Positions 5,715-38,413 of a stretch of DNA of 64,000 nucleotides are shown here, in pieces. Numbering within the stretch: the stretch's first letter is position 1; every line of letters begins with the position of its first letter. The notes under the pieces were generated by a model. It was not told the origin of the DNA. It did no database searches and worked only from the letters and a program-made list of their open reading frames with translations. Origin of the DNA: Luteitalea sp. (GTDB lineage: Bacteria; Acidobacteriota; Vicinamibacteria; Vicinamibacterales; Vicinamibacteraceae); assembly GCA_009377605.1 (NCBI GenBank), contig WHTT01000002.1:1-64000 (forward strand), written 5' to 3'. The position numbers and the translations under genes were made by a program.

Positions 5715-5785
5715 CCGGCGACGCCGACGGCGCGTTCGGCGAACGCGCCCTACCATCGTGGCTGGGAGGACTCTCCGAGGCGTCC
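5711..5785. repeat. REP/BIME-like element A
   Basis: A palindrome GGCGCGTTCG/CGAACGCGCC at 5729-5749, followed by CTAC (GTAG on the other strand), then after 11 bases a degenerate second hairpin ending in GAGGCGTCC (to 5784). The layout matches the better preserved copy at 19506-19565. It fills the convergent gap between yraN and the aminotransferase gene. Confidence 0.7.
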
Positions 5786-5824
5786 GTTTGTGGTTCTCGA
5801 GAGCTCTGGGAACGGCCTGATGCC

Positions 5825-7192
5825 TCAGCGTCGCACCGTGGCGCCCTGGCCGCGCACACGCCCCACGACGCCGAGCGCTTCGTCGAGCGCCGCGAGAGCC
5901 ATATCCGCCTGATCGGTCGTCAGCAGCAGAGGCGGCGAGAACCGAATGACGTTGCGCCCCGCGCCCAGGAGGAGCACGCCGCGTTTGAACACCTCTTCGA
6001 CGACCTGATCGCGCTCTTCAACGGCCCGCTCCTTGGTCTGGCGATCGCGAACGAGCTCGACACCAATCATCAGGCCCCGCCCACGTACATCGCCAATCAG
6101 GGAGTGCTTCTCCTGCAGCGCGCGTAGTCCATCGAGGAGATACGCTCCTACACGTGTGGCATTCTCGATGAGGCTACCCTCGAGCAAACGAATAGTCGCC
6201 AGCGCGGCCGCGCAGGACACCGGATTGCCCCCGAACGTGCTCGCATGCGCGCCAGGCGCCCAGTCCCAGAGCGCGGCGCGACCCGTGGCAACGCCAAGCG
6301 GCATCCCCGATGCAATACCCTTCGCCATCGTGACCATGTCAGGCTGGAGACCAAAGTGCTGGCAGGCAAACATGCGCCCCGTGCGTCCCATACCAGACTG
6401 CACCTCGTCCGCGACGATGAGGATGCCATGCTTACTGGCCAGCGCCTGCAAGCGTTGAAAGAACGATGTGGGCGGTATGATGTATCCACCCTCACCCTGA
6501 ATGGGCTCGACAACAATGGCCGCAACTTCGTCGGGTGGCACCAACTGGGCGAAGAGGCGATCCTCGAGATACTCGAAACACTCGTCGACGGCCGCCTCGG
6601 GACCACGTGGGTGCCGATACGGATCCGGATACGGCGCGTGAAAGACGCCGGGCGTGGTCGTCGGACCAAAGCCTGCCCGCTGCACCGCCTTGCTTGCAGT
6701 GAGACCAAGGGCACCCATCGTGCGGCCGTGGAACGCACCGAAGAACGCAACGACGAAGCTCCGCTTGGAGTGATAGCGCGCGAGCTTGAGCGCCGCTTCG
6801 TTCGCCTCGGCGCCAGAATTACCAAAGAACGACTTGGTCGGCCCCGCGATGGGCACGATCCGGTCGAGCGTTTCTGCCAGCGTGACCTGCGGGTCGTAGT
6901 AGAAGTCAGTGCCGGACATGTGCAGGTAGCGATGCGCCTGTTCCGTTATCGCACTGACGACGTCCGGATGTGAGTGGCCGGTGGAGTTGGTGGCGATGCC
7001 TGCCGCACAGTCCAGGAAGCAGTTGCCGTCGACATCCTCGACCATCGCCCCCTCGCCTCGCGCGATGACGAGCGGATATCCGCGTGTGTAGGATGGCGAG
7101 ACGAATCTGGCGTCGCGCTCGATGATGGCCCTGGCGTTCGGACCCGGCAACCGAGTCTTGATCTGGGGCTTCGATATCACGGTCAGTCTCAC
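5825..7192 (-). CDS. Class III aminotransferase (acetylornithine/4-aminobutyrate aminotransferase family)
   Basis: A 455-residue PLP enzyme of fold type I. The landmarks are GNSGAEANEAALKLAR (124-139, phosphate binding), FHGRTMGALG (154-163), VVEPIQGEGG (227-236), DEVQSGMGRTG (262-272) and Lys291 in MAKGIASGMPLG, the Schiff-base lysine. The family transfers an omega- or alpha-amino group to 2-oxoglutarate; annotated relatives are called acetylornithine or GABA aminotransferases. Neighbours do not settle the substrate, so no symbol is given. It follows cysS on the minus strand, with the REP pair 7214-7284 between them. Confidence 0.85.
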   Translation of the reverse strand: MRLTVISKPQIKTRLPGPNARAIIERDARFVSPSYTRGYPLVIARGEGAMVEDVDGNCFLDCAAGIATNSTGHSHPDVVSAITEQAHRYLHMSGTDFYYDPQVTLAETLDRIVPIAGPTKSFFGNSGAEANEAALKLARYHSKRSFVVAFFGAFHGRTMGALGLTASKAVQRAGFGPTTTPGVFHAPYPDPYRHPRGPEAAVDECFEYLEDRLFAQLVPPDEVAAIVVEPIQGEGGYIIPPTSFFQRLQALASKHGILIVADEVQSGMGRTGRMFACQHFGLQPDMVTMAKGIASGMPLGVATGRAALWDWAPGAHASTFGGNPVSCAAALATIRLLEGSLIENATRVGAYLLDGLRALQEKHSLIGDVRGRGLMIGVELVRDRQTKERAVEERDQVVEEVFKRGVLLLGAGRNVIRFSPPLLLTTDQADMALAALDEALGVVGRVRGQGATVRR

Positions 7193-7284: not shown

Positions 7285-8693
7285 TTCCGCTTCCACTTCG
7301 GCCCGGCTGGCGTGTCCTCGACGACAATGCCGCGGGCGTCGAGCTCGCCGCGGACTCGGTCGGCCGTCGCGAAGTCGCGCCGTCGGCGGGCGCTCTGGCG
7401 CTCGGCCACGAGCCGCTCGATTTCGTCGACGGCCATCGGCAATGCCGCCTCCTCGCGCCGCCGCAGCGCCATCACACCCAGCACGTCGTCGAACTCGTCG
7501 AACGTGCGACGGACGAGATCGGCGTCCGGGCGTCCGAGCTCGCCGGCATCTACGGCGGCATTGACCGCCCGCACCAGGTCGAAGACCGCACCAAGCGCCC
7601 CTGGCACATTGAGGTCGTCGAGCAGCCAGCGGCGGAAGCGGTCTCGCTTCTCTGCCAGCTCTTCTGCGAATCTCGGGCTGGCGGCCTCGCGCGTGACGAG
7701 GTCGAGCCGCGCCAGACAGGCCATCAGCCGCCGCAACGATTCCTCCGCTTGTTGCAGCACCGTCCACGAAAAGCGGAGCTGCTTGCGGTAGTGGACGGCA
7801 AGCAGCGCGTACCGCAGGGCCGACGGGCGGTAGCCTTCCCGGAGCACGTCGGGAATCGTATACACGTTGCCGGCCGACTTCGACATCTTCTCTCGTTCCA
7901 GCAGCAGGTGCTCGACGTGAAACCAGTAGCGCGCAAACGGCTGCCCGGTCGCCGCCTCGGCCTGCGCGATCTCATTCTCGTGATGAGGAAAGATGAGATC
8001 CACACCGCCACAATGAATATCGATGGGCGGCCCGTCGAGCCAGTGCAGGGCCATCGCCGAGCACTCGATGTGCCAACCGGGCCGCCCTGGCCCGAGACCG
8101 GGGTCCCATGTCGGCTCTCCGGGCCGCGCAGCCTTCCACAAGACGAAGTCGCGCGCGTTCTCTTTGTCGTACTTGTCGGCGTCGATGCGGGCGCCAGGCT
8201 TGATGCCGGCATGGTCGAGCTGCGCGAGCTTTCCGTAGTCGGGAAGCGACGCGATCTTGAAGTAGATGGATCCGTCCCCTCGGTACGCGTGACCGCGCTG
8301 CTCGAGCGCCGTGATCATCTCGGCCATCGCCTGGAGATTGGCATCCTCCGTGGCACGCGGCGACTCGTCAGGTGGTGCGATCCCCAGAGTATCGGCATCC
8401 TCGCGGAACGTCGCGATGTACCGGTCGGTATAGTCGTGCAGGGACATGCCGGCATTGCGCGACTCGATAATCGTCCGATCGTCAACGTCTGTGAAGTTGC
8501 TCACATAGCGCACCTGATAGCGGGCGACGTGCCGCAGCATGCGACGCAACAAGTCCACCGCAACGAACGTGCGGAAGTTGCCAATGTGGCCGCGCGCGTA
8601 GACCGTCAAGCCGCAGGCGTACATGCGCACGACATTCCCGCGTGCGGGCGCAAACTCCTCCTCCTGGCGCGTGAGTGTATTGTAGAGACGCAT
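7281..8693 (-). CDS. cysS: Cysteinyl-tRNA synthetase
   Basis: 470 residues, normal for bacterial CysRS, a class I enzyme that charges tRNA-Cys. It has the HIGH-type motif HIGN (36-39) and KMSKS (269-273). The zinc site is present: Cys27 in YACG, Cys211 in WHIECS and the HHEN box at 237-240. The ATG at 8691-8693 starts the conserved MRLYNTLTRQEEEF; the frame stays open 57 codons further upstream, but that stretch is family-unlike. The stop TAG lies in the GTAG head of a REP element. It follows ribF and a small GHKL-like gene on the same strand; the tRNA-Cys gene is 2.3 kb away. Confidence 0.96.
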   Translation of the reverse strand: MRLYNTLTRQEEEFAPARGNVVRMYACGLTVYARGHIGNFRTFVAVDLLRRMLRHVARYQVRYVSNFTDVDDRTIIESRNAGMSLHDYTDRYIATFREDADTLGIAPPDESPRATEDANLQAMAEMITALEQRGHAYRGDGSIYFKIASLPDYGKLAQLDHAGIKPGARIDADKYDKENARDFVLWKAARPGEPTWDPGLGPGRPGWHIECSAMALHWLDGPPIDIHCGGVDLIFPHHENEIAQAEAATGQPFARYWFHVEHLLLEREKMSKSAGNVYTIPDVLREGYRPSALRYALLAVHYRKQLRFSWTVLQQAEESLRRLMACLARLDLVTREAASPRFAEELAEKRDRFRRWLLDDLNVPGALGAVFDLVRAVNAAVDAGELGRPDADLVRRTFDEFDDVLGVMALRRREEAALPMAVDEIERLVAERQSARRRRDFATADRVRGELDARGIVVEDTPAGPKWKRK

Positions 8694-8775
8694 GTCGGAA
8701 TGTTGTCGGCCGGAGATCCCTGCTGCGCTGGCAGCATTGCACGCTGTGCCGCTCAGCGGAACCCAGTACGGGAGC

Positions 8776-9219
8776 TCACCGCTTGTGCGAGGGCAGCTGA
8801 CAGGTGAACCGGCAGAACGCGGTGCGCCCGTCGCGTCCCACGTCGACGCGATCGACGAGGTCACCGAGCATCGCCATGCGGCTCTGGGTGAGAGCCGACT
8901 CGATGGGATCCTGCACCACGGATGTCTGGCGGCAATTGACGCGCGCCGTCATCGCCTCACGCGTGCTGGCATACTGAACCTCGATGGCCGTGCCCGCCGG
9001 CTCTTCCTCGAGATACGGCAACAGCCAGCCGACGGCGTGATCCAGGGCATCACCCAGCCGTGCGGCGTCCGGCTCCTCCGCACCAGCGTAGGCGGCCAGC
9101 CGTTTCGTCATGTCACGCAGGAGCCCGAGGTGCCGCTGGTCCGCGGAAACGCTCAACGTAACTGACACGCCACGCCTGGACAGCGCAGCTGTCGTGGGCT
9201 CCGCCATGACTGGAAGCAT
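8776..9219 (-). CDS. Degenerate GHKL/anti-sigma-factor-like protein
   Basis: 147 residues, or 143 if the ATG at 9207 is used. The layout resembles RsbW/SpoIIAB-type anti-sigma kinases: a beta strand GVSVTLSVSADQRHLGLLRD, a long helix region about 45-62, a strand around GTAIEVQYAST, and a C-terminal strand pair ending GRTAFCRFTCQLP. The ATP-binding residues are missing: the N-box position reads DALDHAVGWLL without the Asn, and no D-x-G-x-G box follows. It would therefore not bind ATP in the normal way. It starts one base after the ribF stop, so it is translationally coupled to ribF. The assignment is from pattern only. Confidence 0.45.
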   Translation of the reverse strand: MLPVMAEPTTAALSRRGVSVTLSVSADQRHLGLLRDMTKRLAAYAGAEEPDAARLGDALDHAVGWLLPYLEEEPAGTAIEVQYASTREAMTARVNCRQTSVVQDPIESALTQSRMAMLGDLVDRVDVGRDGRTAFCRFTCQLPSHKR

Positions 9220-15054: not shown

Positions 15055-18000
15055 CTAAGAACCAAGAACCTTGACCGCTTCGTGGTACTCCTGCAGGCTC
15101 CGAACGTCGAGGCCATGGTCGCGAAGGGCGCGGATCGCGGCAATCGTCGCCGCGCCACCGGTGAGTGTCGTGATGCAGGGGACACCGTGCAGCATCGCGA
15201 TGCGCCGCACAGTGCGATCATCGAAGAACGACTCGCGGCCGAGAGGCGTGTTGATGACCAGGTGAATCTCCTTGTTCAAGATGCGGTCACCGACGTGCGG
15301 ACGCCCCTCGTTGATCTTGTACACGACGTCGGCTGGCAGACCGTGCGCCCGCAGGTGAGCCGCGGTACCGCGCGTCGCCGTAATCTTGAAGCCGATCTCG
15401 TGGAGCTCACGGGCCAGCGGCAGCACGTTTCGCTTGTCGTTGTCATTGACGCTCATGAACGCGGTGCCAGAGAGCGGAAGCTTGTGGCCGGCCCCGATCT
15501 GCGCCTTCGCATAGGCGACGCCAAACGACGTCCCGCCCCCCATCACTTCGCCCGTCGACTTCATCTCCGGCCCGAGTAACGTATCAACACCCGGGAAGCG
15601 CACGAATGGGAAGACGGGCGACTTGACGAACACGCCCGTGCCTTCCAGATCGCCAACCAGGCCGAGCTCCGGCAGGGTGCGGCCAGCCATCACACGGGCC
15701 GCCACCTTTGCGAGGGGCACCCCGGTGGCCTTCGACAGATAGGGCACCGTTCGGGACGCGCGCGGATTGACCTCGAGCACGAACACCGTGTCATCTCTGA
15801 GCGCGAACTGCGCGTTCATCAGGCCCACAACACCCAGTGCTCGTGCGATGCGGCGAATATAGTCGCGGATCGTCGCAAGGTGGCGCTCGGGCACCAGGTA
15901 GGGCGGCACCACGCACGAGCTGTCACCCGAGTGGATGCCAGCCTCCTCGATGTGCTCCATGATGCCGCCGATGACGAGGTTCCCCGCCGCATCGGCCACG
16001 GCGTCCACGTCCAGCTCGAACGCATCCTCGAGAAACTTGTCGATGAGAATCGGGTGTTCGGGCGAGACGTCCACGGCGCTCGCCATGTACTGGTCGAGGC
16101 TGCCCGGATCGTAGACGATCGCCATCGCCCGGCCGCCGAGCACGTAGGAGGGCCGCACCACCAACGGGAACCCAATACGCCGAGCCACGTCGCGCGCCTC
16201 GTCGCGCGAGGCCGCCATGCCGTTGGCGGGCTGCGGAATCGCGAGATCCCAGAGCAGCTTCGCGAAGCGCTCGCGATCCTCGGCCAGGTCGATGGAGTCC
16301 GGCGAGGTGCCGATGATCTTCACGCCTGCCGCCTGCAGCGCCAGTGCGAGCTTCAACGGTGTCTGGCCGCCAAACTGCACGGCGCACGACACATCGCCGC
16401 CCGCGCTCTCCTCGCGCTTGATGATGGCGAGCACGTCCTCGAAGGTGAGCGGCTCGAAGTAGAGGCGGTCGACCGTGTCGTAGTCGGTCGAGACGGTCTC
16501 GGGATTGCAGTTGATCATCACCGTCTCGTACCCCTCGTCACGCAGGGCAAAGGCGGCGTGGCAACAGCAGTAGTCGAACTCGATCCCCTGGCCGATCCGG
16601 TTCGGCCCACTCCCGAGAATCACCACCTTGGGTCGGCTCGTCGGATCCGCCTCGCATTCTTCCTCATAGCTGCCGTACATGTATGGCGTGAAAGACTCGA
16701 ACTCCGCGGCGCAGGTGTCAATCCGTTTGTAGCTGGTCGTCAGCGCGAGCTCTTCGCGCCGGGCGCGCACGGCCTCCTCCCGCGTCTCACAGATGATGGC
16801 AAGGTCTTGATCGGAGAACCCGGAGCGCTTCAGCGTGCGCAGCAAATCGGGCGACATCTCGCGCAAGCCGAGATCGCCCGCCATGCGTGCCAGCTCGGCG
16901 ATCGACGCGAATTGGCTCAAGAACCACTGATCGATGTGCGTGAGCTGATGAAGCTGGTCGACCGACCACCCGGCCTCGAGCGCCCGAAAGATGGCCCACA
17001 TGCGTTGGTCGCTCGGAACGACGAGCTGCCGATGCAGCGCGCCCATGCCCGCTTCGTCCGCCTCGAATTGCTGGCCGAAGAGAGAGGCACCGCTCCGGCC
17101 CAATTCGAGCGATCGGACACCCTTCAGGAACGCCTCCTTGAAGGTGCGGCCAATCGCCATCACCTCCCCCACCGACTTCATCTGGGTCGTCAGGGTCGTA
17201 TCCGCTTCCGGAAACTTCTCGAAGGCCCAACGTGGAATCTTCACGACGATGTAGTCGATGGTGGGTTCGAAGGAGGCAGGCGTCACTCGGGTGATGTCGT
17301 TGGGAATCTCGTCCAGTCGATATCCGAGGGCAAGCTTGGCCGCGATCTTCGCGATGGGAAACCCTGTGGCCTTCGACGCCAGCGCCGATGATCGCGACAC
17401 ACGCGGGTTCATCTCAATCACCACTATCCGACCGTCGTCCGGGTTGATGGCGAATTGAATATTGGAGCCGCCCGTTTCGACGCCGACCCTGCGGATGACA
17501 CGCCGTGCCGCGTCACGCATCCGCTGGTACTCCTTGTCCGTGAGGGTCAGCGCTGGTGCCACGGTGATGCTATCGCCGGTGTGAACGCCCATGGGATCGA
17601 CGTTCTCGATGGAGCAGATCACCACGAAGTTATCGGCGCTGTCGCGCATCACCTCGAGCTCGAACTCCTTCCAGCCGATCACCGACTCTTCGACGAGGAT
17701 GTCGTGGACCGGGCTGAGACTGATGCCGCGCTCGGCGATCTCGCGGAACTCTTCGAGGTTGTACGCAATGCCGCCGCCGATCCCCCCCAGCGTGAACGAG
17801 GGACGGAGGATCGCTGGAAATCCGATCTCTTGGACGGCCGCCAGCGCCGCCTCGAGGGAGCTCACGACCGCAGACCGTGGGACGTCGATGCCGATCTCCC
17901 GCATCGCGTCGCGAAAGCGCAGGCGATCCTCGGCCACCTGAATCGCGTCGACCGACGCGCCAATGAGCGTGACCCCATACTGCGCAAGCGTGCCCTGCTC

Positions 18001-18306
18001 GGCGAGCGCCACCGCGAGGTTGAGCGCTGTTTGGCCACCGACCGTCGGGAGCAGTGCGTCCGGCCGCTCGCGTTCGATGATCGTCGAGAGGATCTCCGGT
18101 GTCAGCGGCTCGACGTACGTCCGATCCGCCAGCTCTGGGTCGGTCATGACGGTGGCTGGGTTGCTGTTGACGAGGACGATCTCGAGCCCCTCCGCCCTGA
18201 GCGCTTTACAAGCCTGCGTTCCCGAGTAGTCGAACTCACACGCCTGGCCAATGACGATTGGCCCTGAGCCGATCACGAGGACGCGGTGGATGTCGGTTCG
18301 TTTCAT
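15055..18306 (-). CDS. carB: Carbamoyl-phosphate synthase large subunit
   Basis: 1083 residues, full length. It has two homologous ATP-grasp halves: the first starts [21 protein letters not shown] and the second [19 protein letters not shown] (about residue 560), and each has the EVNPR/EMNPR metal-binding box. A C-terminal MGS-like allosteric domain (about 945-1083) follows. With CarA it makes carbamoyl phosphate for pyrimidines and arginine. The ATG at 18306 starts the conserved [10 protein letters not shown], two bases after the carA stop; the open frame upstream is not family-like. The last codons and stop lie in a short heptamer duplication (GGTTCTT twice). Confidence 0.97.
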
Positions 18307-18308
18307 CG

Positions 18309-19451
18309 TTACCGCTGCTCCTCCATCGCGTCGAGGAACTGGCGGAACAGGTAGTCTGCGTCGTGCGGACCGGGCGACGCTTCGGGATGGTACTGAACAC
18401 AAAAGGTCGGCTTGGTGCGGTGCCGGAGCCCCTCGATGGTGCCGTCGTACAGATTCACGTGTGTGACCTCGATCGCCTCGGGCATGCCCTCTGGATCGAC
18501 CGCAAAACCGTGATTCTGCGAGGTGATCTCCACCTGCTCGGTTGCCAGATGCTTCACGGGATGGTTCGCGCCGCGATGGCCGAACTTCAGCTTGAAGGTC
18601 TTCGCACCGAGGGCAAGCGCCAGCACTTGGTGCCCGAGACAAATGCCGAAGATCGGCACCTCCTCGCGCGTGAGCTCCCGGGCGCTTGCGACAGCGTAGT
18701 CCACCGCCGCCGGATCGCCGGGGCCGTTGCTCAGGAAGATGCCGTCCGGCTTCATGGCCAGCAGCTCAGCGGCCGGCGCGGTGGCTGGAAACACGCGGAC
18801 GTCGCAGCCGTGGAGATCGAAGCGGCGCAGGATGTTGTACTTCATGCCGTAGTCGTATGCGGCCACGCGCATGCGGCGCGCAGCACGGCGCGACGGCATG
18901 TGAATGAGCTCCCGGGCGTCGGTGAGCGTCTCATCTCCAGCCGGCTCGTAGTCGAAGGGCACGGCACAGGTGACGCGACGGACCAGGTCTTGCCCCTCCA
19001 TACGCGGAATCGCGCGCGCCTTGTCCACCAGGTCGTCCGGCGAAAGCTCCTGCCCTGTCGCAAGCACGCCGCGCATGGCGCCTGCGCTGCGCAGGGCTCG
19101 CGTGAGCGCCCGCGTGTCGACATCGCCAATCGCAATCAGGTTGTTGGCAATGAGGTACTCGCGCAGCGTACTGTCGGCACGCCAGTTACTGGCGATCGCT
19201 GAAGCCTCACGCACGACGAAGCCCGCCACTTGCGGATGGCCCGACTCGACATCTTCACTCGTGACGCCGTAGTTGCCGATGAGCGGCGCGGTCATCGTGA
19301 CGATCTGGCCCGCGTACGACGGATCCGTGAGCACTTCTTGGTAACCGGTGAGGCTCGTGTTGAAGACGACCTCGCCGCTGGTCTCGCCCGATGCACCGAT
19401 CGAGACCCCTTCGAACACTCGGCCGCTTTCAAGGGCGAGAATCGCCTTCAT
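18309..19451 (-). CDS. carA: Carbamoyl-phosphate synthase small subunit
   Basis: 380 residues, usual for CarA. The N-terminal domain contains [20 protein letters not shown] (26-45). The class I glutamine amidotransferase domain has the nucleophile Cys271 in FGICLGHQ and His355/Glu357 in YHPEASPG. It hydrolyses glutamine and channels ammonia to CarB, encoded two bases downstream. The ATG at 19451 matches the family start MKAILALE; the 18 codons upstream are not conserved. REP element C separates it from the PEGA pseudokinase gene. Confidence 0.97.
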
Positions 19452-19505
19452 GGGGTATGAATGTCCTACGATTGCGTCCCGTATCGCGGGTGCAACATCC
19501 AGCAC

Positions 19506-19565
19506 GGCGCGTTCGGCGAACGCGCCCTACCATGGTGGCGGTAGGGACGCCTCGCCGAGGCGTCC
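19506..19565. repeat. REP/BIME-like inverted pair C
   Basis: Left hairpin GGCGCGTTCG/CGAACGCGCC then CTAC (19506-19530); right element GTAG followed by GACGCCTCG/CGAGGCGTC (19541-19565). The two GTAG heads face each other across ten bases. It is the best preserved copy of the family also seen at 5729, 30010 and 43159. Confidence 0.85.
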
Positions 19566-19580
19566 GTCGATCTGTCTCGT

Positions 19581-22373
19581 CTAGCGATCTCTATCCAGCG
19601 AGGCGGCAATGCGCACCTGCTGCCCGGCCTCGACCGTGACGCGCGTCTCCCACGCACGGTAACCAGGCAGCTCGAAGCGTACCGTGTGCGAGCCGCTCGG
19701 CACGTTGGGAATTGTCGCCGGCGTCCGCCCCACGGACCGTCCATCGACCAAGATCTGCGCGCCGGTCGGACGCGTGAGCGTGACGATCCCACCGGTGGCG
19801 CCGCTCGTCGTTTCTGTCGGCTCGGTTGGCGCGGCAGCGGGCTCGGCTGGCGCTGTTGCCGTCGAGCCCTGGGAGCCTGTCGCCGCACCTGCCGTGTCCT
19901 CGCGGAGATCAATCGTCACCGCCGCGGCTGGAGAATCGGGCGCAATCATCACCCGGCGGGTGACGTCTTCGTAACCTGGTCGACTGGCAACGACGGTGTG
20001 CGCCCCCCAGTCGAGTGCATACACGGCCACCGGCGAGCTACCGCGCGGGACCCCGTCGACCGTGACCGTTGCTGAAGGAGACGTGCGCACGAGCAGCCGG
20101 CCGCGATCGGGACGCTCATCAGCCCCCGTCGTGCCCCGGCCAGACGCGGCGCTCGACGTCCTCGTCCCTCGACTCCGCTCCGGGGCAGCTTGCGGCTGCG
20201 TCGAAGGGGTCGGGGCCTCCGGAGCCTGTCGAGGATCAACTGGCCGCTCCTGGCGAGCCGATTGTCCTCGGGGGGTTTCGGGTACCGGGGCAACCGCGGC
20301 GCCCTCGGCCGACTCTGTGGGTGCGCTGCTGCCGGCCGCCGTCGCGTCTGACGTCTCATCAGCAGATGGCGGAGCGCTCACCGCATCGGCATCCGTCGTT
20401 CGCTCGGTCGGGAGGATTGCATTCTGTGGCAGCGTCCACGCCCCGTAGAACCAGGCGCCAGCCGCCACCGCAAGCAGCAGAAGTAACAGCGGAAGCAGGA
20501 AGCGACGCCTGCGCCGGCGGTCCGCCTCGTCATCCCACTCGTCCGCATCATCGGCAAACAACGTGGCAGCGCCGACGGGCGCCGTGCCCGCCGCTGACGC
20601 GCGATCGTCCAGCGGCCAGTCGACGTCGCGGCCATTCGGCTCCACTTCGAGCGAGCGTGTCAGCTCCCCAGCGGCATCCGTCATGCCCTCGGCGATCTCG
20701 GGACTGCGCCCGGCTACACGCCCACCCAGCTCGCTCGGTCCCTCGTGCTGGCCACCATGGCCCGTCGGATCGTCGACGTCCAAGAAACGGCCGTCCGGCG
20801 CCGGGCTGTCGGCGCCCTGGTCCGCCGCGAAGTCTGCCATGGGCGACGCGTATTCCACCTCCTCCTGCGCGTCGACCAGCGGCACCGCCATCGTCGATGC
20901 CAGCCAGCCTTCGGACTCCCCTCGCGCATCGGCAGATGTGGGGGGCTCGGCGGCGGCGCTGTCCGCGCTCGTGGCACCCTCGTACTCCTCGCCCTGAGCA
21001 GGGTCGAAGAGCTCGGCCTCAGGCTGGAGCTCGTGATCTGCAGGCCTCGCCGAGACTGATTCGAGCCCACCGGGCGCGAACATCATCTCAGTCCTGGACT
21101 CGCCTTCCGCGTCCAGAGGGTGCGCATCAGACGTGGTCTCCGTCTCCTCGCCGCTGGCCGCTCGGTCAAGATCCACCGCTGTGGGCAGAGGAGCCGCGGC
21201 ATCGGCAGCGCCTCCCGTCTCGCCGATGGTCGGGGAGGGTGAGCCGTTCGCGCTCCGTGTTCGCTTCCCCGTGACTCCCCGACTTCCTGCGTCGTCTGCA
21301 GGGCGCATCTCCGCCGGCTCGTCCGACTCGGGCTGGAAGAGTGTCAACGGATCAGATGCGTCGCTGGGCTCCGCCGCTCGGCTCTCGGCGCCCGGGACCG
21401 ACGTTCGGCGCCGCGCTCGGGGTGGCCGCGCCGCTTCTGGCAGCACGCCGTCGCGTGTAAACCGCGCCAACTCCCCATCCTCGGTGGCCCCTTCACCGGC
21501 GCCGGTTCGCGCCGCGGCGCGCTTGACGGCCGGCCGCTGTCCGACACCAGCACGGTGGTGCACCGCACCGCGCTTGGCATCGCCACCGTAGACATACGCG
21601 GCCCCCGCGTCGAGCAGGCCCTGGACGAACGCGCGCGCGCTAGCGGGCCGCCGCTCCGCATCCGCGCTCAACGCCCGCGCGAAGACGTCAACGAGCGCCC
21701 GGTCGTATTCCGGACTCACCGTCGGCGGAAGCCGCCTCGCCGCCACGCGTCCCGTCCCGGCCGGCCGTGCGCCAGCCAGACACTCGAACGCAATCACGGC
21801 GAGTGAGAAGACATCCGCCGCGGGCCCCCACGAGGGTCCTGCTGCACGTTCGGGCGCCGTGTAAGGCAAGCGCACCGGAGCGCGGAGGCCGACCTCCTCG
21901 ACGCTGCGCGCGACACCACACCCGCTGATCCGAGGGCCATCGAGCGTCAACACGACGTCCCGCGGATGCAACGAGCCATGATCCACACCGTCGGCGTGAA
22001 TGGCGTCGATGGCTTCCGCCATCGCTTCGAGCCAGCCGAGTGACTCGCTCGGCAGCGCCGCGTCGCGCTCGCGGAGACGCGCATCGAGCGCCATCCCTTC
22101 GGCGTGCTCCGTGGCCAAGTAAGCCAAGTGATTCGCCACGCCCGCTTCGAACAGCTTGATGATGCCTGGATGTGAGGACAAGCGCGCCGCCGTCGCGTTG
22201 AGACGCTGCACGAGCGCTGCGATCTCGTCGGGCGTCGCGTCGACGTCGAAGACCTTGACGGCGGCCGTTACGTGCAGCACCTCATCCGAGGCGAGAAACA
22301 CCGGCCCCAGCGTGCCGACACCGATTTGATGCTGCACGCGATACGAACCGAGGAATGAGGGCAACTCGGCCAA
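19581..22373 (-). CDS. PEGA-domain transmembrane pseudokinase (Ser/Thr kinase-like)
   Basis: 930 residues. The N-terminal 1-270 have the protein-kinase fold: glycine loop GVGTLG (18-23), Lys40 in AAVKVFD and a TAPE (172-175) near the activation segment. Catalytic residues are lost: the HRD position reads HGS (132-134) and DFG reads GCG (151-153), so phosphotransfer is unlikely. A long acidic, low-complexity linker (about 275-620) follows, then a basic stop-transfer RRRRR and a membrane helix (about 627-648). The outer part has two PEGA repeats (about 756-812 and 859-927; VDGVPRGSSP and VDGRSVGRTP). It probably senses envelope or wall state and acts by binding partners. A -10 TATAAT lies about 70 bases upstream. 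Confidence 0.85.
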   Translation of the reverse strand: MAELPSFLGSYRVQHQIGVGTLGPVFLASDEVLHVTAAVKVFDVDATPDEIAALVQRLNATAARLSSHPGIIKLFEAGVANHLAYLATEHAEGMALDARLRERDAALPSESLGWLEAMAEAIDAIHADGVDHGSLHPRDVVLTLDGPRISGCGVARSVEEVGLRAPVRLPYTAPERAAGPSWGPAADVFSLAVIAFECLAGARPAGTGRVAARRLPPTVSPEYDRALVDVFARALSADAERRPASARAFVQGLLDAGAAYVYGGDAKRGAVHHRAGVGQRPAVKRAAARTGAGEGATEDGELARFTRDGVLPEAARPPRARRRTSVPGAESRAAEPSDASDPLTLFQPESDEPAEMRPADDAGSRGVTGKRTRSANGSPSPTIGETGGAADAAAPLPTAVDLDRAASGEETETTSDAHPLDAEGESRTEMMFAPGGLESVSARPADHELQPEAELFDPAQGEEYEGATSADSAAAEPPTSADARGESEGWLASTMAVPLVDAQEEVEYASPMADFAADQGADSPAPDGRFLDVDDPTGHGGQHEGPSELGGRVAGRSPEIAEGMTDAAGELTRSLEVEPNGRDVDWPLDDRASAAGTAPVGAATLFADDADEWDDEADRRRRRRFLLPLLLLLLAVAAGAWFYGAWTLPQNAILPTERTTDADAVSAPPSADETSDATAAGSSAPTESAEGAAVAPVPETPRGQSARQERPVDPRQAPEAPTPSTQPQAAPERSRGTRTSSAASGRGTTGADERPDRGRLLVRTSPSATVTVDGVPRGSSPVAVYALDWGAHTVVASRPGYEDVTRRVMIAPDSPAAAVTIDLREDTAGAATGSQGSTATAPAEPAAAPTEPTETTSGATGGIVTLTRPTGAQILVDGRSVGRTPATIPNVPSGSHTVRFELPGYRAWETRVTVEAGQQVRIAASLDRDR

Positions 22374-22440
22374 TGACGCTCATCTACTAGTACGCGTGAG
22401 AGGAATCGTTTCCAACGATGGTCACACGCACATCGATTGC

Positions 22441-22446
22441 ATTATA
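22441..22446 (-). promoter_or_regulatory. Extended -10 box for the pseudokinase gene
   Basis: On the minus strand the sequence reads TGC-TATAAT, a perfect -10 with a TGn extension, 68 bases before the ATG. A weak -35 (TTGTGA) is 15 bases further up. It lies within 10 bases of the plus-strand promoter of bshC, so the two divergent promoters probably interfere. Confidence 0.5.
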
Positions 22447-22451
22447 GCAGC

Positions 22452-22480
22452 TTGACAGGGTTCACAATGCTCTGAGACAT
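22452..22480 (+). promoter_or_regulatory. Putative sigma-70 promoter of bshC
   Basis: A perfect -35 TTGACA (22452-22457) is followed after 17 bases by AGACAT (22475-22480), a weak -10. Transcription would start only a few bases before the GTG at 22491. The -35 match is strong and the -10 poor. Confidence 0.4.
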
Positions 22481-22490
22481 TAGCCTATCT

Positions 22491-24140
22491 GTGCCTTTGG
22501 ACTCGAGCACTTCTGCTATCGTCCGCCGCGGCATCGACATACGGGAGATGTCCGCGGCACGGCGTCTGAACATCGATTATCTCCACCGCTTCGAGTCGCT
22601 CGCAGCATTCTTCGCCGGCGATCCCGCGTCTCCGAACGCGTGGCGGCAGGCGATCGCGCGTGCGCAGCGATACGTTCGGCCGCGCACCGAGCTCGTCGCG
22701 GTTCTGGCCGCCCAGCAGGCTTCACGCGAGACACCCGCGGCCGCGCGCGACGCGGCAAAGACACTGGTAGACCCTACCAGCATTGCTATCGTCACGGGAC
22801 AGCAAGCGGGTCTCTTTGGAGGCCCGTTGTACACCTTGCTCAAGGCGATTGCAACCATACGCCTCGCCGAGCAGATCTCGCGCGAGCACGGCGTGCCGGC
22901 CGTCCCCTTCTTCTGGATCGATGCCGATGATCACGACTGGGATGAAGTGAGTAGCTGCTCGGTGCTCGATCGGGAGCTCCTCCCCCAGCGAGTCGACGTC
23001 CCGAAGCCCGATGGCGCTGGAACGCTCCCGGTCGCGCGCGTTGATTTGCCACCCGCTGTCCACACCGCAATCGACGCACTGGGTGTGCACCTCGCACCGA
23101 CCGAGTTCACCGACGCCCTCCTCGGCGATCTCCGCAGTATCTATCGCGGTGGCGTTGGCATGGCTGCCGCGTTCGCGCAATGGCTGGAACGTCTGCTCGC
23201 TCCCCACGGCTTGGTGGTCTTCGACGCGGCGGATCCGGCGGCCAAGCCACTTGTCAGGCATGTCTTCGAGCGCGAGCTCGACACGATTGGACACACGGCG
23301 GACCTGGCCGCGCGTGCCGGCGCCGCGCTCGAGGCGCTTGGCTATCATGCGCAGGTCACACCGCAAGCCGGACAACCGGCGCTGTTCCATCACGGCCAGT
23401 CGCGCCTACCGATTCGGCACCGTGACGACGCGTTCACCATAGGTGAGGCGACCCGCTCGAACGCAGATCTCCTTCGCGAGATCCGCAGCGATCCCGCGCG
23501 CTTCAGCCCCAACGTGCTGCTGCGGCCGATCGTGCAGGATACGCTCGTGCCAACCGCTGCGTACATGGCTGGCCCGAGCGAGCTCGTGTATCTCGGTCAA
23601 CTACGCGACATTTACGCACACTTCGACCTGCCGATGCCGCTCATCGTGCCTCGTCCGAGCGCGACGATCCTGGACTCGGCCGGGACACGCTTTCTCGCAC
23701 GCCACACGCTCAAGCTCGACGACCTGCGTGCCCAGGATGAATCGCTGCTCAACCGGCTGCTCGAAGGACAATTGCCCGCCACGGTGGAAGAGGGCTTCGC
23801 GCACGCGTCAGCGACGTTGCAGGAGCGTCTGGGTGAGCTGATTCGTGCCGTCCCCGCTGTCGATCCGACGCTCGAGGGGGCAGCGCGAACGACGCTCACG
23901 AAGATGGATCGTGAGCTGCAGACCCTGCACGCCAAGGTGATTCAAGCAGCCAAGCGCCGCGATGACACGCTCCGCCGCCAGTTCACCCGCACACGCGCTC
24001 AGGCCTTCCCGGGCGGCCAGCCCCAGGAGCGTGCTCTTGGCTTCGTCTACTTCCTGAACCGCTATGGTCCCGCGCTCGTCGACCAGCTGCGGGCCGATCT
24101 GCCGCTCGATGCGCGGCAGCATTGGGTGCTGACACCGTAG
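22491..24140 (+). CDS. bshC: Bacillithiol biosynthesis cysteine-adding enzyme BshC
   Basis: 549 residues, the BshC length. Family landmarks include VTGQQAGLFGGPLYTLLKA (about 101-119), VPFFWIDADDHDWDEV (about 138-153), a C-terminal coiled coil (about 435-505) and the end FLNRYGPALVDQL. BshC joins cysteine to glucosaminyl-malate in the last step of bacillithiol synthesis. BshA and BshB are not encoded in the window. The GTG at 22491 is the likely start; the upstream divergent gene is the pseudokinase. Its TAG stop overlaps the GTG of the PBP gene by one base (TAGTG), so the two are coupled. Confidence 0.93.
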   Translation: MPLDSSTSAIVRRGIDIREMSAARRLNIDYLHRFESLAAFFAGDPASPNAWRQAIARAQRYVRPRTELVAVLAAQQASRETPAAARDAAKTLVDPTSIAIVTGQQAGLFGGPLYTLLKAIATIRLAEQISREHGVPAVPFFWIDADDHDWDEVSSCSVLDRELLPQRVDVPKPDGAGTLPVARVDLPPAVHTAIDALGVHLAPTEFTDALLGDLRSIYRGGVGMAAAFAQWLERLLAPHGLVVFDAADPAAKPLVRHVFERELDTIGHTADLAARAGAALEALGYHAQVTPQAGQPALFHHGQSRLPIRHRDDAFTIGEATRSNADLLREIRSDPARFSPNVLLRPIVQDTLVPTAAYMAGPSELVYLGQLRDIYAHFDLPMPLIVPRPSATILDSAGTRFLARHTLKLDDLRAQDESLLNRLLEGQLPATVEEGFAHASATLQERLGELIRAVPAVDPTLEGAARTTLTKMDRELQTLHAKVIQAAKRRDDTLRRQFTRTRAQAFPGGQPQERALGFVYFLNRYGPALVDQLRADLPLDARQHWVLTP

Positions 24141-26542
24141 TGCCCGGCGCTCCTCGACGCTCGCCCCGGCGATACAACCGGCGCACCAGGGCGGAGCTGC
24201 GCCGAGGCCGCCGGTCTCGGCGCCGATCCCGTCTCAACTGGTGGGTGCTCGGGCTCGTGGGCTTGGTCGGCCCGCTGTTGGTCATGGGGCTCGTGCTCGC
24301 CTATCTGTTCGTGACCGTGTCCCGCGAGGTCGACCGCTTCGTCACCGGCAGTCAGTCACGCGCGCTCCCGCACGTGTACGCACGCGCGTTCACCGTGAAG
24401 CGTGGTCAGTCGTTGACCGATCGCCAGCTCGTGGAGCGGCTCAATGACCTCGGTTACTCGCAACGCGCGCCTGTCGCGAACCCGGGCGAGTTCGCCATTG
24501 GTCGCCAGGCCGTGGCGCTCGTGCCTCGCACGGGTGATCATCGGGGGCGCATCGTCCGCGTGGTCTTCCAACAGGCACCGCAGGGAACGTCCGGGCGCGT
24601 GCAGCGGATCGAGCTCCTTCGTGCCGGCACGATGCCCACCCTCACGCTCGATGCGCCGCTGCTCACGGCGGTGGCGAGCGGCGCCCGCGAGAAACGGCGG
24701 CAGGTAACGCTTGCCCAGATTCCCGAACGCATGCAGCAGGCGGTGCTCGCCATCGAGGATCGCCGGTTCTACTCGCATCCTGGCCTCGATGTGGTGCGCA
24801 CGATCGCCGCGGCGGTCACAAACGTGCGCGGCGATCGTCCATACCTGGTCGGTGCGAGCACGCTCACGCAGCAGCTCGTCAAGAACTCCTTCCTCACGCC
24901 GGAGAAGTCCTATTGGCGGAAGCTCCAGGAAGCCGTGCTGGCGGTTGTTCTCGAGCGACGTTTGGAGAAGCCAGCGATACTCGAGCTCTACCTGAACGAC
25001 GTCTACCTCGGACACTGGGGATCGTTCGCGCTTCGCGGTGTCGCCGAAGGCGCGCGGCTCTTCTTCGAAAAGGACGTGAAGAATCTCACGTTGAGCGAGG
25101 CCGCCACGATCGCCGGCGTCATTCAGAGCCCGAATCACTATTCACCGTTCCGGCACCGGGCCCGCGCGCGTACTCGCCGCAATGTCGTGCTGCGCGCGAT
25201 GGTCGACGCCGGCTTCATCACGCGGGACATCGGCGAGCGCGCGGCGGCCGAGCCGCTCATCGTCCAGGCACGCGCGCTCGATGCCGAGGCGCCGTATTTC
25301 GTCGACTACGTCATGCGACTGGTGGGCCAAAGCCTGACGGCACCCAGCTCGCGCGCGATCACCATCCAGACGACGTTGGATCTGCATCTCCAGCGGCTGG
25401 CGCAAGAGGCCGTTGCCTCCGGCCTCGAGCGTGTCGATCGCGCGTTGGCACGGCGTCGGACCCGGCGTGGCGCTGCGCAAGCGGCCCTGGTGGCGGTCGA
25501 TCCGCGCACCGGCGACGTCCTCGCGCTCGTTGGAGGGCGGTGGTACAACTCGTCGCAGTACAACCGAGCCGTGAGCGCCCGCCGCCAACCGGGATCGATC
25601 TTCAAGCCCTTCGTCTACCTCGCCGCGTTCGAGCGCGCACGGATCGAGCGGCGCACAGACCTGACGCCAGCAACCGTGGTCATCGATGAGCCGACCACCT
25701 TTGTCGATGGCGACAAGACCTGGACGCCGGCCAACTACGAGAACGAGTACGACGGGCCGATTACGTTACGCCGAGCGCTCGCGCGATCACGCAATATTGC
25801 GACAATCAAGGTCGCGGAGATGGCCGGCTACGATCGCGTGGCGGAGGTCTGGCGTCGTGTGGGCAGCCGTGCCTCTCCGCGCCCCTATCCCGCCATCACG
25901 CTCGGCGTGTTCGAGGTCACACCGCTGGAGATCGCCGAAGCCTACACGCTGTTTGCCAACCTCGGCGAGGTGCGGCCACTGCGCGTGATCGATCGGCTCA
26001 TGCTCGACAATCGGGAGATACGCACGCCACGCCAGCCTCGCACTCGCGCCGTCGCCTCGCCGCAAGCGACGTTCCTGGTCACGAGCATGATGCGCAGCGT
26101 GCTCGACGAAGGCACCGGCGCGGCCGCGCGCGCGGCAGGGTTCCAGCCGGATGCGGCCGGCAAGTCGGGCACCACGAACGACCTGCGCGATGCCTGGTTC
26201 GTCGGCTTCACGCCCGAGCTGCTCACCGTTGTCTGGGTCGGGCTCGACGACAACACCCCGGTCGGCCTCAGCGGCTCGAGCGCCGCGCTACCGATCTGGA
26301 CGCGCTTCATGCAGCGCGCGTTGTCCGGGCACGAGCGCGTATCGTTTCCGGTACCGGACGACATTGCGTTCGCGGACATCGATCCGGAAACTGGCGAGCG
26401 GGCAGGCCCACTCTGCCCCACGCGCATCAACGAAGTGTTCCTCGAAGGCACCGAGCCAACCACGATCTGCCAGGTGCATCACCATTGGGTGCCGCAGCCG
26501 TTGCCGGTGGGGTCAGAGCAGGGTGAGGGAGTGATAAGGTGA
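24140..26542 (+). CDS. Class A penicillin-binding protein (PBP1b-like, with UB2H-like domain)
   Basis: About 800 residues from GTG 24140; a TTG at 24122 is an alternative start. A basic cytosolic tail (1-35) and a membrane helix (about 36-60) are followed by a UB2H-like region (about 80-145). The GT51 glycosyltransferase has catalytic Glu206 in IEDRRFYSHPG and GASTLTQQLVKN. The transpeptidase domain has SIFK (Ser486), the SRN box in ARSRNIATIK and KSGT (675-678). It polymerises and cross-links peptidoglycan in the periplasm. The UB2H-like part suggests a PBP1b-type enzyme. It is coupled to bshC. Its TGA stop is the first repeat unit of the octamer array. Confidence 0.92.
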   Translation: MPGAPRRSPRRYNRRTRAELRRGRRSRRRSRLNWWVLGLVGLVGPLLVMGLVLAYLFVTVSREVDRFVTGSQSRALPHVYARAFTVKRGQSLTDRQLVERLNDLGYSQRAPVANPGEFAIGRQAVALVPRTGDHRGRIVRVVFQQAPQGTSGRVQRIELLRAGTMPTLTLDAPLLTAVASGAREKRRQVTLAQIPERMQQAVLAIEDRRFYSHPGLDVVRTIAAAVTNVRGDRPYLVGASTLTQQLVKNSFLTPEKSYWRKLQEAVLAVVLERRLEKPAILELYLNDVYLGHWGSFALRGVAEGARLFFEKDVKNLTLSEAATIAGVIQSPNHYSPFRHRARARTRRNVVLRAMVDAGFITRDIGERAAAEPLIVQARALDAEAPYFVDYVMRLVGQSLTAPSSRAITIQTTLDLHLQRLAQEAVASGLERVDRALARRRTRRGAAQAALVAVDPRTGDVLALVGGRWYNSSQYNRAVSARRQPGSIFKPFVYLAAFERARIERRTDLTPATVVIDEPTTFVDGDKTWTPANYENEYDGPITLRRALARSRNIATIKVAEMAGYDRVAEVWRRVGSRASPRPYPAITLGVFEVTPLEIAEAYTLFANLGEVRPLRVIDRLMLDNREIRTPRQPRTRAVASPQATFLVTSMMRSVLDEGTGAAARAAGFQPDAAGKSGTTNDLRDAWFVGFTPELLTVVWVGLDDNTPVGLSGSSAALPIWTRFMQRALSGHERVSFPVPDDIAFADIDPETGERAGPLCPTRINEVFLEGTEPTTICQVHHHWVPQPLPVGSEQGEGVIR

Positions 26543-37411: not shown

Positions 37412-38413
37412 ATGCTGTTCAAAGGTCAGGAGCTGGGCAAGTACAAGATCCTGGCGTCGCTCGGCAGCGGCGGCTTTGGCACTGTGTACTTGGCGCGCGA
37501 TACCTGGATCGACAAAGAAGTTGCGATCAAGGTACCGCACCGACAGCACCAGAGCTTTGGCGAGCTGCTGCGCGAGCCGCGGCTACTGGCCAGCCTGAGC
37601 CATCCGAACATCGTCTCCATCACGACCGCGGAAAAGCAAGACGAGGTCTTCTTCATTGTGATGGAGTACGTGAAAGGGGAAACGCTCGAGGGCATTCTCG
37701 TCCGGGACGGCGCGCTCGATCTACGCCGTGCACTCGATTACGCCGTGCAGATTTGCAACGGTGTCGATCACGCACATCGACAAGGCGTTCTGCACCGCGA
37801 CCTGCGCCCAGCCAACGTGCTGGTCTCGGAGAACGGCGTGCTCAAGGTGGCGGACTTCGGCACGTCTCGCTTTCTCGAGATCGCCGCGCATGGCACCACC
37901 GTGATCGGCAGTCCCGCCTACATGGCGCCGGAGCAGTTCCAAGGCAAGGCGGTCTTTGCGTCGGATCTCTACTCCCTTGGCGTCACCATGTATCAGATGC
38001 TGATCGGTGAGCTTCCTTACGATCCGCCGACACCGGCGAGCTGGCACAAGCTGCTCGACGGCAGCCTCCTGCGATCGCCGCGTCTCAAGAACAGCGCCCT
38101 CCCGAAGCCACTCTGCGAGATCGTACTCCGCGCGCTGGCCCCAGATATACCCGAGCGATATCAGCGTGCGAGCGACCTGCTCGATGACTTGCTGTCGACA
38201 CGCCCCCTCGTCTTGGGTCATACGCCGACCCGTGTGGAGGAGGTCGCGACGACACGGCCAACGGCGCGTGAGCAGGCCACACTCGAGCGCGCGGGTGTCC
38301 AGCGGCGATTGCAGAGCCGCGCCGAGACACCGACGTCGCGCACCTGCTGGCACTGTGGCAAGCCGCTCCATGCTCGTGCTGGCCGCTGCCCGTTCTGCGG
38401 CGAAGCACAGTAG
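37412..38413 (+). CDS. Ser/Thr protein kinase with C-terminal zinc ribbon
   Basis: 333 residues from the ATG at 37412. The kinase domain (11-275) is complete: GSGGFG (18-23), Lys40 in VAIK, Glu55, HRDLRPAN (128-135), DFG (148-150) and APE (172-174). HRD is followed by LR rather than the usual LK, a mild substitution. No membrane helix is present, so it is cytosolic. The C-terminus ends in a zinc ribbon with Cys312, 315, 326 and 329 (CWHC...CPFC). Substrates are unknown. Its TAG stop begins a CAGGATT-type repeat array leading to recX. Confidence 0.9.
   Translation: MLFKGQELGKYKILASLGSGGFGTVYLARDTWIDKEVAIKVPHRQHQSFGELLREPRLLASLSHPNIVSITTAEKQDEVFFIVMEYVKGETLEGILVRDGALDLRRALDYAVQICNGVDHAHRQGVLHRDLRPANVLVSENGVLKVADFGTSRFLEIAAHGTTVIGSPAYMAPEQFQGKAVFASDLYSLGVTMYQMLIGELPYDPPTPASWHKLLDGSLLRSPRLKNSALPKPLCEIVLRALAPDIPERYQRASDLLDDLLSTRPLVLGHTPTRVEEVATTRPTAREQATLERAGVQRRLQSRAETPTSRTCWHCGKPLHARAGRCPFCGEAQ

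Follow-up and report, generated by a model that had tools for sequence, protein, structure and literature searches.

A conserved family of predicted membrane-anchored pseudokinases upstream of carAB in the bacterial order Vicinamibacterales

The Hanks-type kinase PknB combines an N-terminal kinase domain, a linker, a single transmembrane segment, and an outer domain made of PASTA repeats, a layout like that of the protein analyzed here. Bacterial Ser/Thr pseudokinases are defined in a 2025 review (PMC12599244) as proteins without one or more of the β3 Lys, the HRD Asp, and the DFG Asp, and seven families are described there: ActPs1–3, GLW, CP1, DYD, and DLHK. Similar in general character are ActPs3 (MviN/MurJ, Mycobacterium), a membrane-linked bacterial pseudokinase presented as a non-catalytic scaffold under the control of other proteins, and EssB/YukC of the Firmicutes T7SSb, a single-pass membrane pseudokinase acting as a scaffold or dimeriser (PMC12599244). 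The main text of the review mentions neither Acidobacteriota nor PEGA domains, and literature searches returned nothing that pairs a pseudokinase with a PEGA domain, nothing on a bacterial pseudokinase in Acidobacteri-, and nothing on a Vicinamibacter serine threonine kinase.

Here, we analyzed a 64,000-nucleotide stretch of Luteitalea sp. (contig WHTT01000002.1, positions 1 to 64,000; “the window”), in which a transmembrane PEGA protein had been predicted to be a pseudokinase. The kinase fold said to be retained was recovered both by profile search (Pfam Pkinase, aa 11–206, 66.3 bits against a cut-off of 31.7) and by structure prediction, a check suggested at the outset, which yielded an AlphaFold2 model of the domain with a mean pLDDT of 93.7; the β3 lysine is present in the context AAVKVF. 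The best PDB match was PknA (4ow8; Z 26.1, rmsd 2.8, 248 aligned), with PknI also among the best, and MviN and EssB structures were absent among the best 50 PDB fold matches listed, which does not count against a likeness to them. PknA/PknB/PknI-type kinases thus share the fold, whereas here the catalytic residues except Lys are replaced and PEGA stands where PknB has PASTA. The reading of HRD as HGS and of DFG as GCG proved correct (Table 1), while the motif described as “APE-like” is present at aa 173–175 as an intact APE. With a kinase fold by sequence and model and at least one catalytic-triad residue gone, the window protein is a predicted pseudokinase in the sense of the definition given in PMC12599244.

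The gene lies on the minus strand, which the original prediction left unstated, and its predicted TTG start is the earliest in-frame start downstream of a TGA (read by eye). A consensus promoter scan of positions 19300–22700 returned 0 promoter-like sites and 1 terminator-like site against 1.1 expected. By eye, an extended −10-like stretch that the scan missed, TGCTATAAT, can be seen at about 22440–22450 on the minus strand, 5′ of the pseudokinase start. Downstream of the kinase domain, the linker is acidic as proposed, although longer than the ~340 residues first given, and the single membrane helix and two PEGA domains were found again, with PEGA (PF08308) above cut-off at 101.7 bits over two stretches and six Arg ahead of the helix. 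This architecture is family-wide: exactly one transmembrane segment was found in 60/61 full open reading frames, and PEGA was detected at E ≤ 0.001 in all 59 C-terminal tails scanned. The charge bias around the membrane segment is weak across the family, an excess of K/R on the N-terminal side occurring in 39/67. Compared with shuffled linkers, the linkers showed no strongly conserved short motif and were mainly enriched in acid/Pro-rich repeats; accordingly, linker phospho-sites for an FHA protein were considered and rejected.

Table 1 Features of the pseudokinase locus and of linked genes in the window.
Feature	Coordinates	Strand	Remarks
Pseudokinase–TM–PEGA gene	19581..22373	minus	930 aa, 930 codons; TTG start 22373, stop 19581
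Pseudokinase domain, aa 11–256	21606..22343	minus	Pfam and AlphaFold2
K40, β3 lysine	22254..22256	minus	Kept in 69/69 orthologues
HGSLHPRD, aa 132–139, replacing HRDxKPxN	21957..21980	minus	H132, G133, H136, R138, D139 invariant in 69/69
GCG, aa 151–153, replacing DFG	21915..21923	minus	Gly at the Asp position in 68/69
R168, invariant family-specific Arg preceding APE	21870..21872	minus	Orthologue alignment
Acidic low-complexity linker, aa 263–617	20523..21587	minus	355 aa, net charge −43
Single transmembrane helix, aa 625–643	20445..20501	minus	Hydrophobicity
First PEGA domain, ~aa 758–826	19896..20102	minus	Pfam; ends placed by eye
Second PEGA domain, aa 863–928	19590..19787	minus	Pfam
carA, carbamoyl-phosphate synthase small subunit	18309..19451	minus	Start (19451) by homology
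carB, large subunit	15055..18306	minus	Start (18306) by homology
bshC (TIGR03998), divergent neighbor	22491..24140	plus	In 65/69 orthologous loci
Zinc-ribbon Hanks kinase, HRD/DFG intact	37412..38413	plus	Linked; also present without the pseudokinase

A kinase-domain search of 149 Vicinamibacterales genomes identified one orthologue each in 103 (E of 2e-32 or better). Motif counts cover 69 of the 103 orthologues, not counting the window protein, and across this set K40 is invariant, whereas the catalytic Asp occurs in none (Ala in 52, Ser in 10, Gly in 4, Thr in 2, and Val in 1). The catalytic Lys and the Asn of HRDxKPxN are replaced by His and Asp, respectively, in 69/69, and the DFG Asp is replaced by Gly in all but one orthologue (L101, which reads DLG). 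Such a survey had been proposed together with the original prediction, with intact HRD/DFG in orthologues as the result that would speak for a sequence error; instead, the agreement of all 69 orthologues rules out sequencing error behind the lost motifs and upholds the pseudokinase reading. The domain is very probably devoid of kinase activity.

The window’s genome contains 17 Pkinase matches, and among the 16 others the 15 complete ones all keep the HRD Asp and the DxG Asp, the sixteenth being cut by a contig end. The alignment comprises 60 kinase domains out of 70; short rows and rows containing X were dropped, and some others are not part of it. A tree of 32 of these 60 pseudokinase domains and 36 other kinases, with two duplicate rows among them and a bootstrap that had yet to settle fully, placed each group on one side of a 100/100 branch. 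When 297 genomes of the phylum were searched, scores of at least 278 bits came solely from Vicinamibacterales; below this level, a C-lobe-only gene of the same order (G020) reached 170 bits and all others at most 163. A tblastn search of plasmids gave generic kinase matches only, with at most 35.5% identity among the 10 matches listed, and a single-sequence contig scan returned the corresponding locus of Luteitalea sp. WHTZ01 along with one Actinomyces kinase of the ordinary type, its HRD and DFG intact. Another degenerate kinase, not a member of the family, was seen at L133 (G012:C203, open reading frame 7840–9168, minus strand), where HRDxKPxN reads HGDIRPDT and DFG reads NFG.

The kinase domain is under purifying selection: relative to the same-genus orthologue, dN/dS is ~0.15 (dN 0.097, dS 0.66), compared with 0.21 for the PEGA part and 0.29 for the linker. 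Judged from its sequences, this is an ancient, strictly conserved pseudokinase family within one bacterial order, Vicinamibacterales.

Set against the family descriptions in PMC12599244, the combination of a kept β3 Lys with loss of both the HRD Asp and the DFG Asp looks absent from the described families. All three catalytic residues are substituted in ActPs1; ActPs2 shows β3 Lys to Arg, HRD Asp to Asn, and a DFG deletion; DYD couples β3 Lys to Arg with a DYD motif; and GLW has GLW for HRD and Leu or Trp at the β3 Lys, whereas here the Lys is kept and is combined with HG[ASGTV]. ActPs3 has lost its β3 Lys (VALT) and carries an activation-loop deletion, and EssB has LDMR at β3 and a degraded Gly loop; the present family differs from both in its kept Lys, from ActPs3 also in its PEGA ectodomain and bshC/carAB neighbors, and from EssB also in its kept Gly loop. 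EssB/YukC is encoded alongside its T7SSb partners; the neighbors of the present family are bshC, carAB, and PBP1A. CP1 has no transmembrane segment and a linked COG3899 domain, unlike the window protein, in which a transmembrane helix is present and only kinase, PEGA, and CarboxypepD_reg exceed the Pfam cut-offs. Finally, DLHK keeps the HRD Asp, has lost the β3 Lys, and has no transmembrane segment, the reverse of what is found here on all three points. Since none of the seven descriptions in the review fits, the family looks undescribed, being set apart on the basis of those descriptions (PMC12599244).

Natural truncations provide a view of how the parts of the protein may be used. Among the 46 genomes without a full match, a search for bshC in 44 was positive in 34, and the bshC–carA interval was readable at 23 loci. 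Six genomes, all of one genus, encode the C-lobe, linker, transmembrane helix, and PEGA part with the N-lobe gone (G020, G030, G063, G082, G097, and G135; loci L150, L153, L156, L157, L158, and L186), and four encode the transmembrane helix and PEGA part without a kinase domain at the same place ahead of carA (G007, G109, G102, and G121; loci L160, L185, L189, and L194). At ten loci, bshC and carA are present and the gene is absent (G076, G087, G039, G056, G132, G115, G138, G129, G015, and G059), which makes it dispensable in some lineages. N-lobe remnants were found in two genomes (G017 and G074), and a 4.4-kb bshC–carA interval in G148 gave no match to either protein half. Near 5716–5997 of the G017 locus (L166), a short repeat, SCQLSALSCQL, comes after the remnant and may represent a repeat element within the decayed gene. 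Within one taxonomic family, the states form a step-wise loss from the full protein to C-lobe plus helix and PEGA (6), helix and PEGA (4), and none (8), while 2 of the ten gene-less loci fall outside that family.

In the six C-lobe-only proteins, R138 is replaced by Q/S and D139 by N/R/K/H in 6/6, whereas H132, G133, and H136 stay (by eye). Because R138 and D139 are lost together with the N-lobe, they probably work with the N-lobe cleft, and because all six genomes belong to one genus, this co-loss represents one event rather than six; a possible second event is seen in G147, on a truncated contig, with Lys to Arg and HGALTPSH. The C-lobe-only protein is still modeled by AlphaFold2 as a kinase C-lobe (pLDDT 81.0), with Foldseek matches to PknB/PknI, and its retention in six N-lobe-less genomes suggests that the C-lobe has a use without the nucleotide cleft.

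Likewise, the four genes without a kinase domain suggest that the outer part can have its own use. One could therefore propose that the transmembrane and PEGA envelope part does the work in general, with the pseudokinase merely a cytoplasmic anchor or dimeriser, a proposal also in line with the GxxxG present in 43/67 transmembrane segments of the family. We regard this as doubtful, since conservation within the protein is highest in the kinase domain (85% identity for the same-genus pair, versus 72% for PEGA), whose pocket residues are invariant.

These residues were evaluated by comparing 60 pseudokinases with 33 active kinases, 32 from genomes of the window’s family and one from Actinomyces, after omission of one truncated kinase and three duplicates. 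G133, H136, and D139 are each found in 60/60 pseudokinases and 0/33 active kinases, R138 in 60/60 versus 1/33, R168 in 60/60 versus 5/33, P24 of the glycine loop in 59/60 versus 0/33, and G151 in 59/60 versus 2/33. The family-specific near-invariant positions cluster in motifs lining the active site, and K40, H136, R138, D139, and R168 are each kept in 69/69 orthologues. That one alternative residue set is kept across about a hundred species indicates that the pocket was rebuilt and then kept, rather than left to random decay. This invariant signature of a “dead” pocket went beyond the original prediction, as did the conservation of the carAB adjacency, usually with a 4-nt overlap.

Five invariant charged or His residues in one pocket, four of which active kinases seldom or never have, might instead form the new site of an enzyme of another kind (H136, R138, D139, R168, and K40); the kinase fold would then have been adapted to another type of ATP-dependent transfer, for which the review offers SidJ and SelO as precedents (PMC12599244). 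Such an enzyme is unlikely, however, as the position that is Gly here in 68/69 is still a DFG-type Asp in SidJ and SelO (DLG, DYG/DFG; Table 1 of PMC12599244), and the six genomes without the N-lobe still keep the remainder of the protein. A pocket combining K40 and positive residues without a DFG Asp resembles, by analogy, the metal-independent ATP binding of DLHK/ULK4, the DLHK family having lost its DFG Asp (GFG) and having a proposed positively charged pocket (PMC12599244).

The zinc-ribbon kinase had been suggested, as a speculation, to be a partner of the pseudokinase, and we evaluated whether the pseudokinase could be its substrate, decoy, or regulator. An orthologue of this kinase, which has HRD and DFG, was detected in 131/149 genomes; both genes occur in 95 genomes and on one contig in 63, where the kinase is upstream and divergent in 63/63, 6.5–28 kb apart. 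The two genes are thus linked across the order, but 36 genomes in which no pseudokinase was detected also have the kinase (a negative set that includes incomplete MAGs and contig breaks), so that obligate pairing is unsupported, and the kinase lies on the bshC contig as usual in 15/18 genomes without a full pseudokinase. Since the kinase is kept where the pseudokinase is absent, the linkage reflects regional synteny with no sign of dependence, and the lack of a strongly conserved short motif in the acid/Pro-rich linker also argues against a substrate, decoy, or regulator role, to which we assign a low probability. Least plausible of all is a slowly dying relic, i.e., an inactive kinase under deletion, for which the step-wise loss in one family and the N-lobe remnants of G017 and G074 could be cited, but which the low dN/dS, the alternative signature invariant in 60/60, and retention in 103/149 genomes make very improbable, and already unlikely for most of the order.

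The location of carAB downstream in the same orientation, as first reported, was borne out, and the order bshC (divergent), pseudokinase, carA, carB, and often comEC is conserved across the 69 loci. Neighbors detected among these were bshC in 65, carA in 59, and carB in 57, with many of the loci truncated at a contig end; the names bshC, carA, PBP1A, and comEC derive from NCBIfam matches on the window copies. A PBP1A-family protein (window positions 24122–26542) adjoins bshC, and its cluster is found near the pseudokinase in 44/69 loci. Of the 61 loci with a placeable carA start, window included, 38 show a 4-nt overlap between the pseudokinase stop and this start, and 53 have a gap of ≤50 nt (31 and 41 of 49 by pattern, 7 and 12 of 12 by eye). 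In the window’s genus, the two are separated by 129 nt (window) or 118 nt (G006). The short gap or 4-nt overlap suggests that the pseudokinase gene is co-transcribed with carA and, in the majority of species, translationally coupled to it. Because of this overlap, the first candidate partner is CarAB or a factor required in concert with it. Operon genes are often tightly packed, however, so the overlap need not mean interaction, and CarAB as the partner of the pseudokinase is a tentative proposal.

Taken together, the most likely explanation is an order-wide family of single-pass membrane pseudokinases acting as membrane-tethered, non-phosphorylating scaffolds or sensors, and a scaffold or allosteric role for the pseudokinase domain itself appears probable. 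The “one-way scaffold or sensor” of the original prediction thus fits, its direction being conjectural. In this scaffold or sensor model, the PEGA part would lie in the envelope and the cytoplasmic pseudokinase would serve as a binding platform. In most species, the cleft may hold a ligand, possibly a nucleotide without metal, or may lock its shape through K40, R138, D139, and R168, and the liganded or locked cleft would then switch a partner. A more specific version, in which these membrane-anchored proteins would regulate carbamoyl-phosphate synthase under the control of a ligand, is speculative and has only a small chance of being correct: PEGA would read the envelope, the K40/H136/R138/D139/R168 pocket would bind a phosphate metabolite or a nucleotide in a metal-free, non-catalytic manner, and the protein, co-made with CarA via translational coupling, would tune CarAB.

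Bacterial pseudokinases have been little studied, and this family adds to them a strict alternative pocket signature and a fixed place beside carAB. Its truncation series among living relatives, from the full protein to C-lobe only to no kinase domain, lets a non-catalytic role of the kinase fold be tested. If the CarAB-tuning reading were true, it would tie pyrimidine and arginine supply to wall growth.
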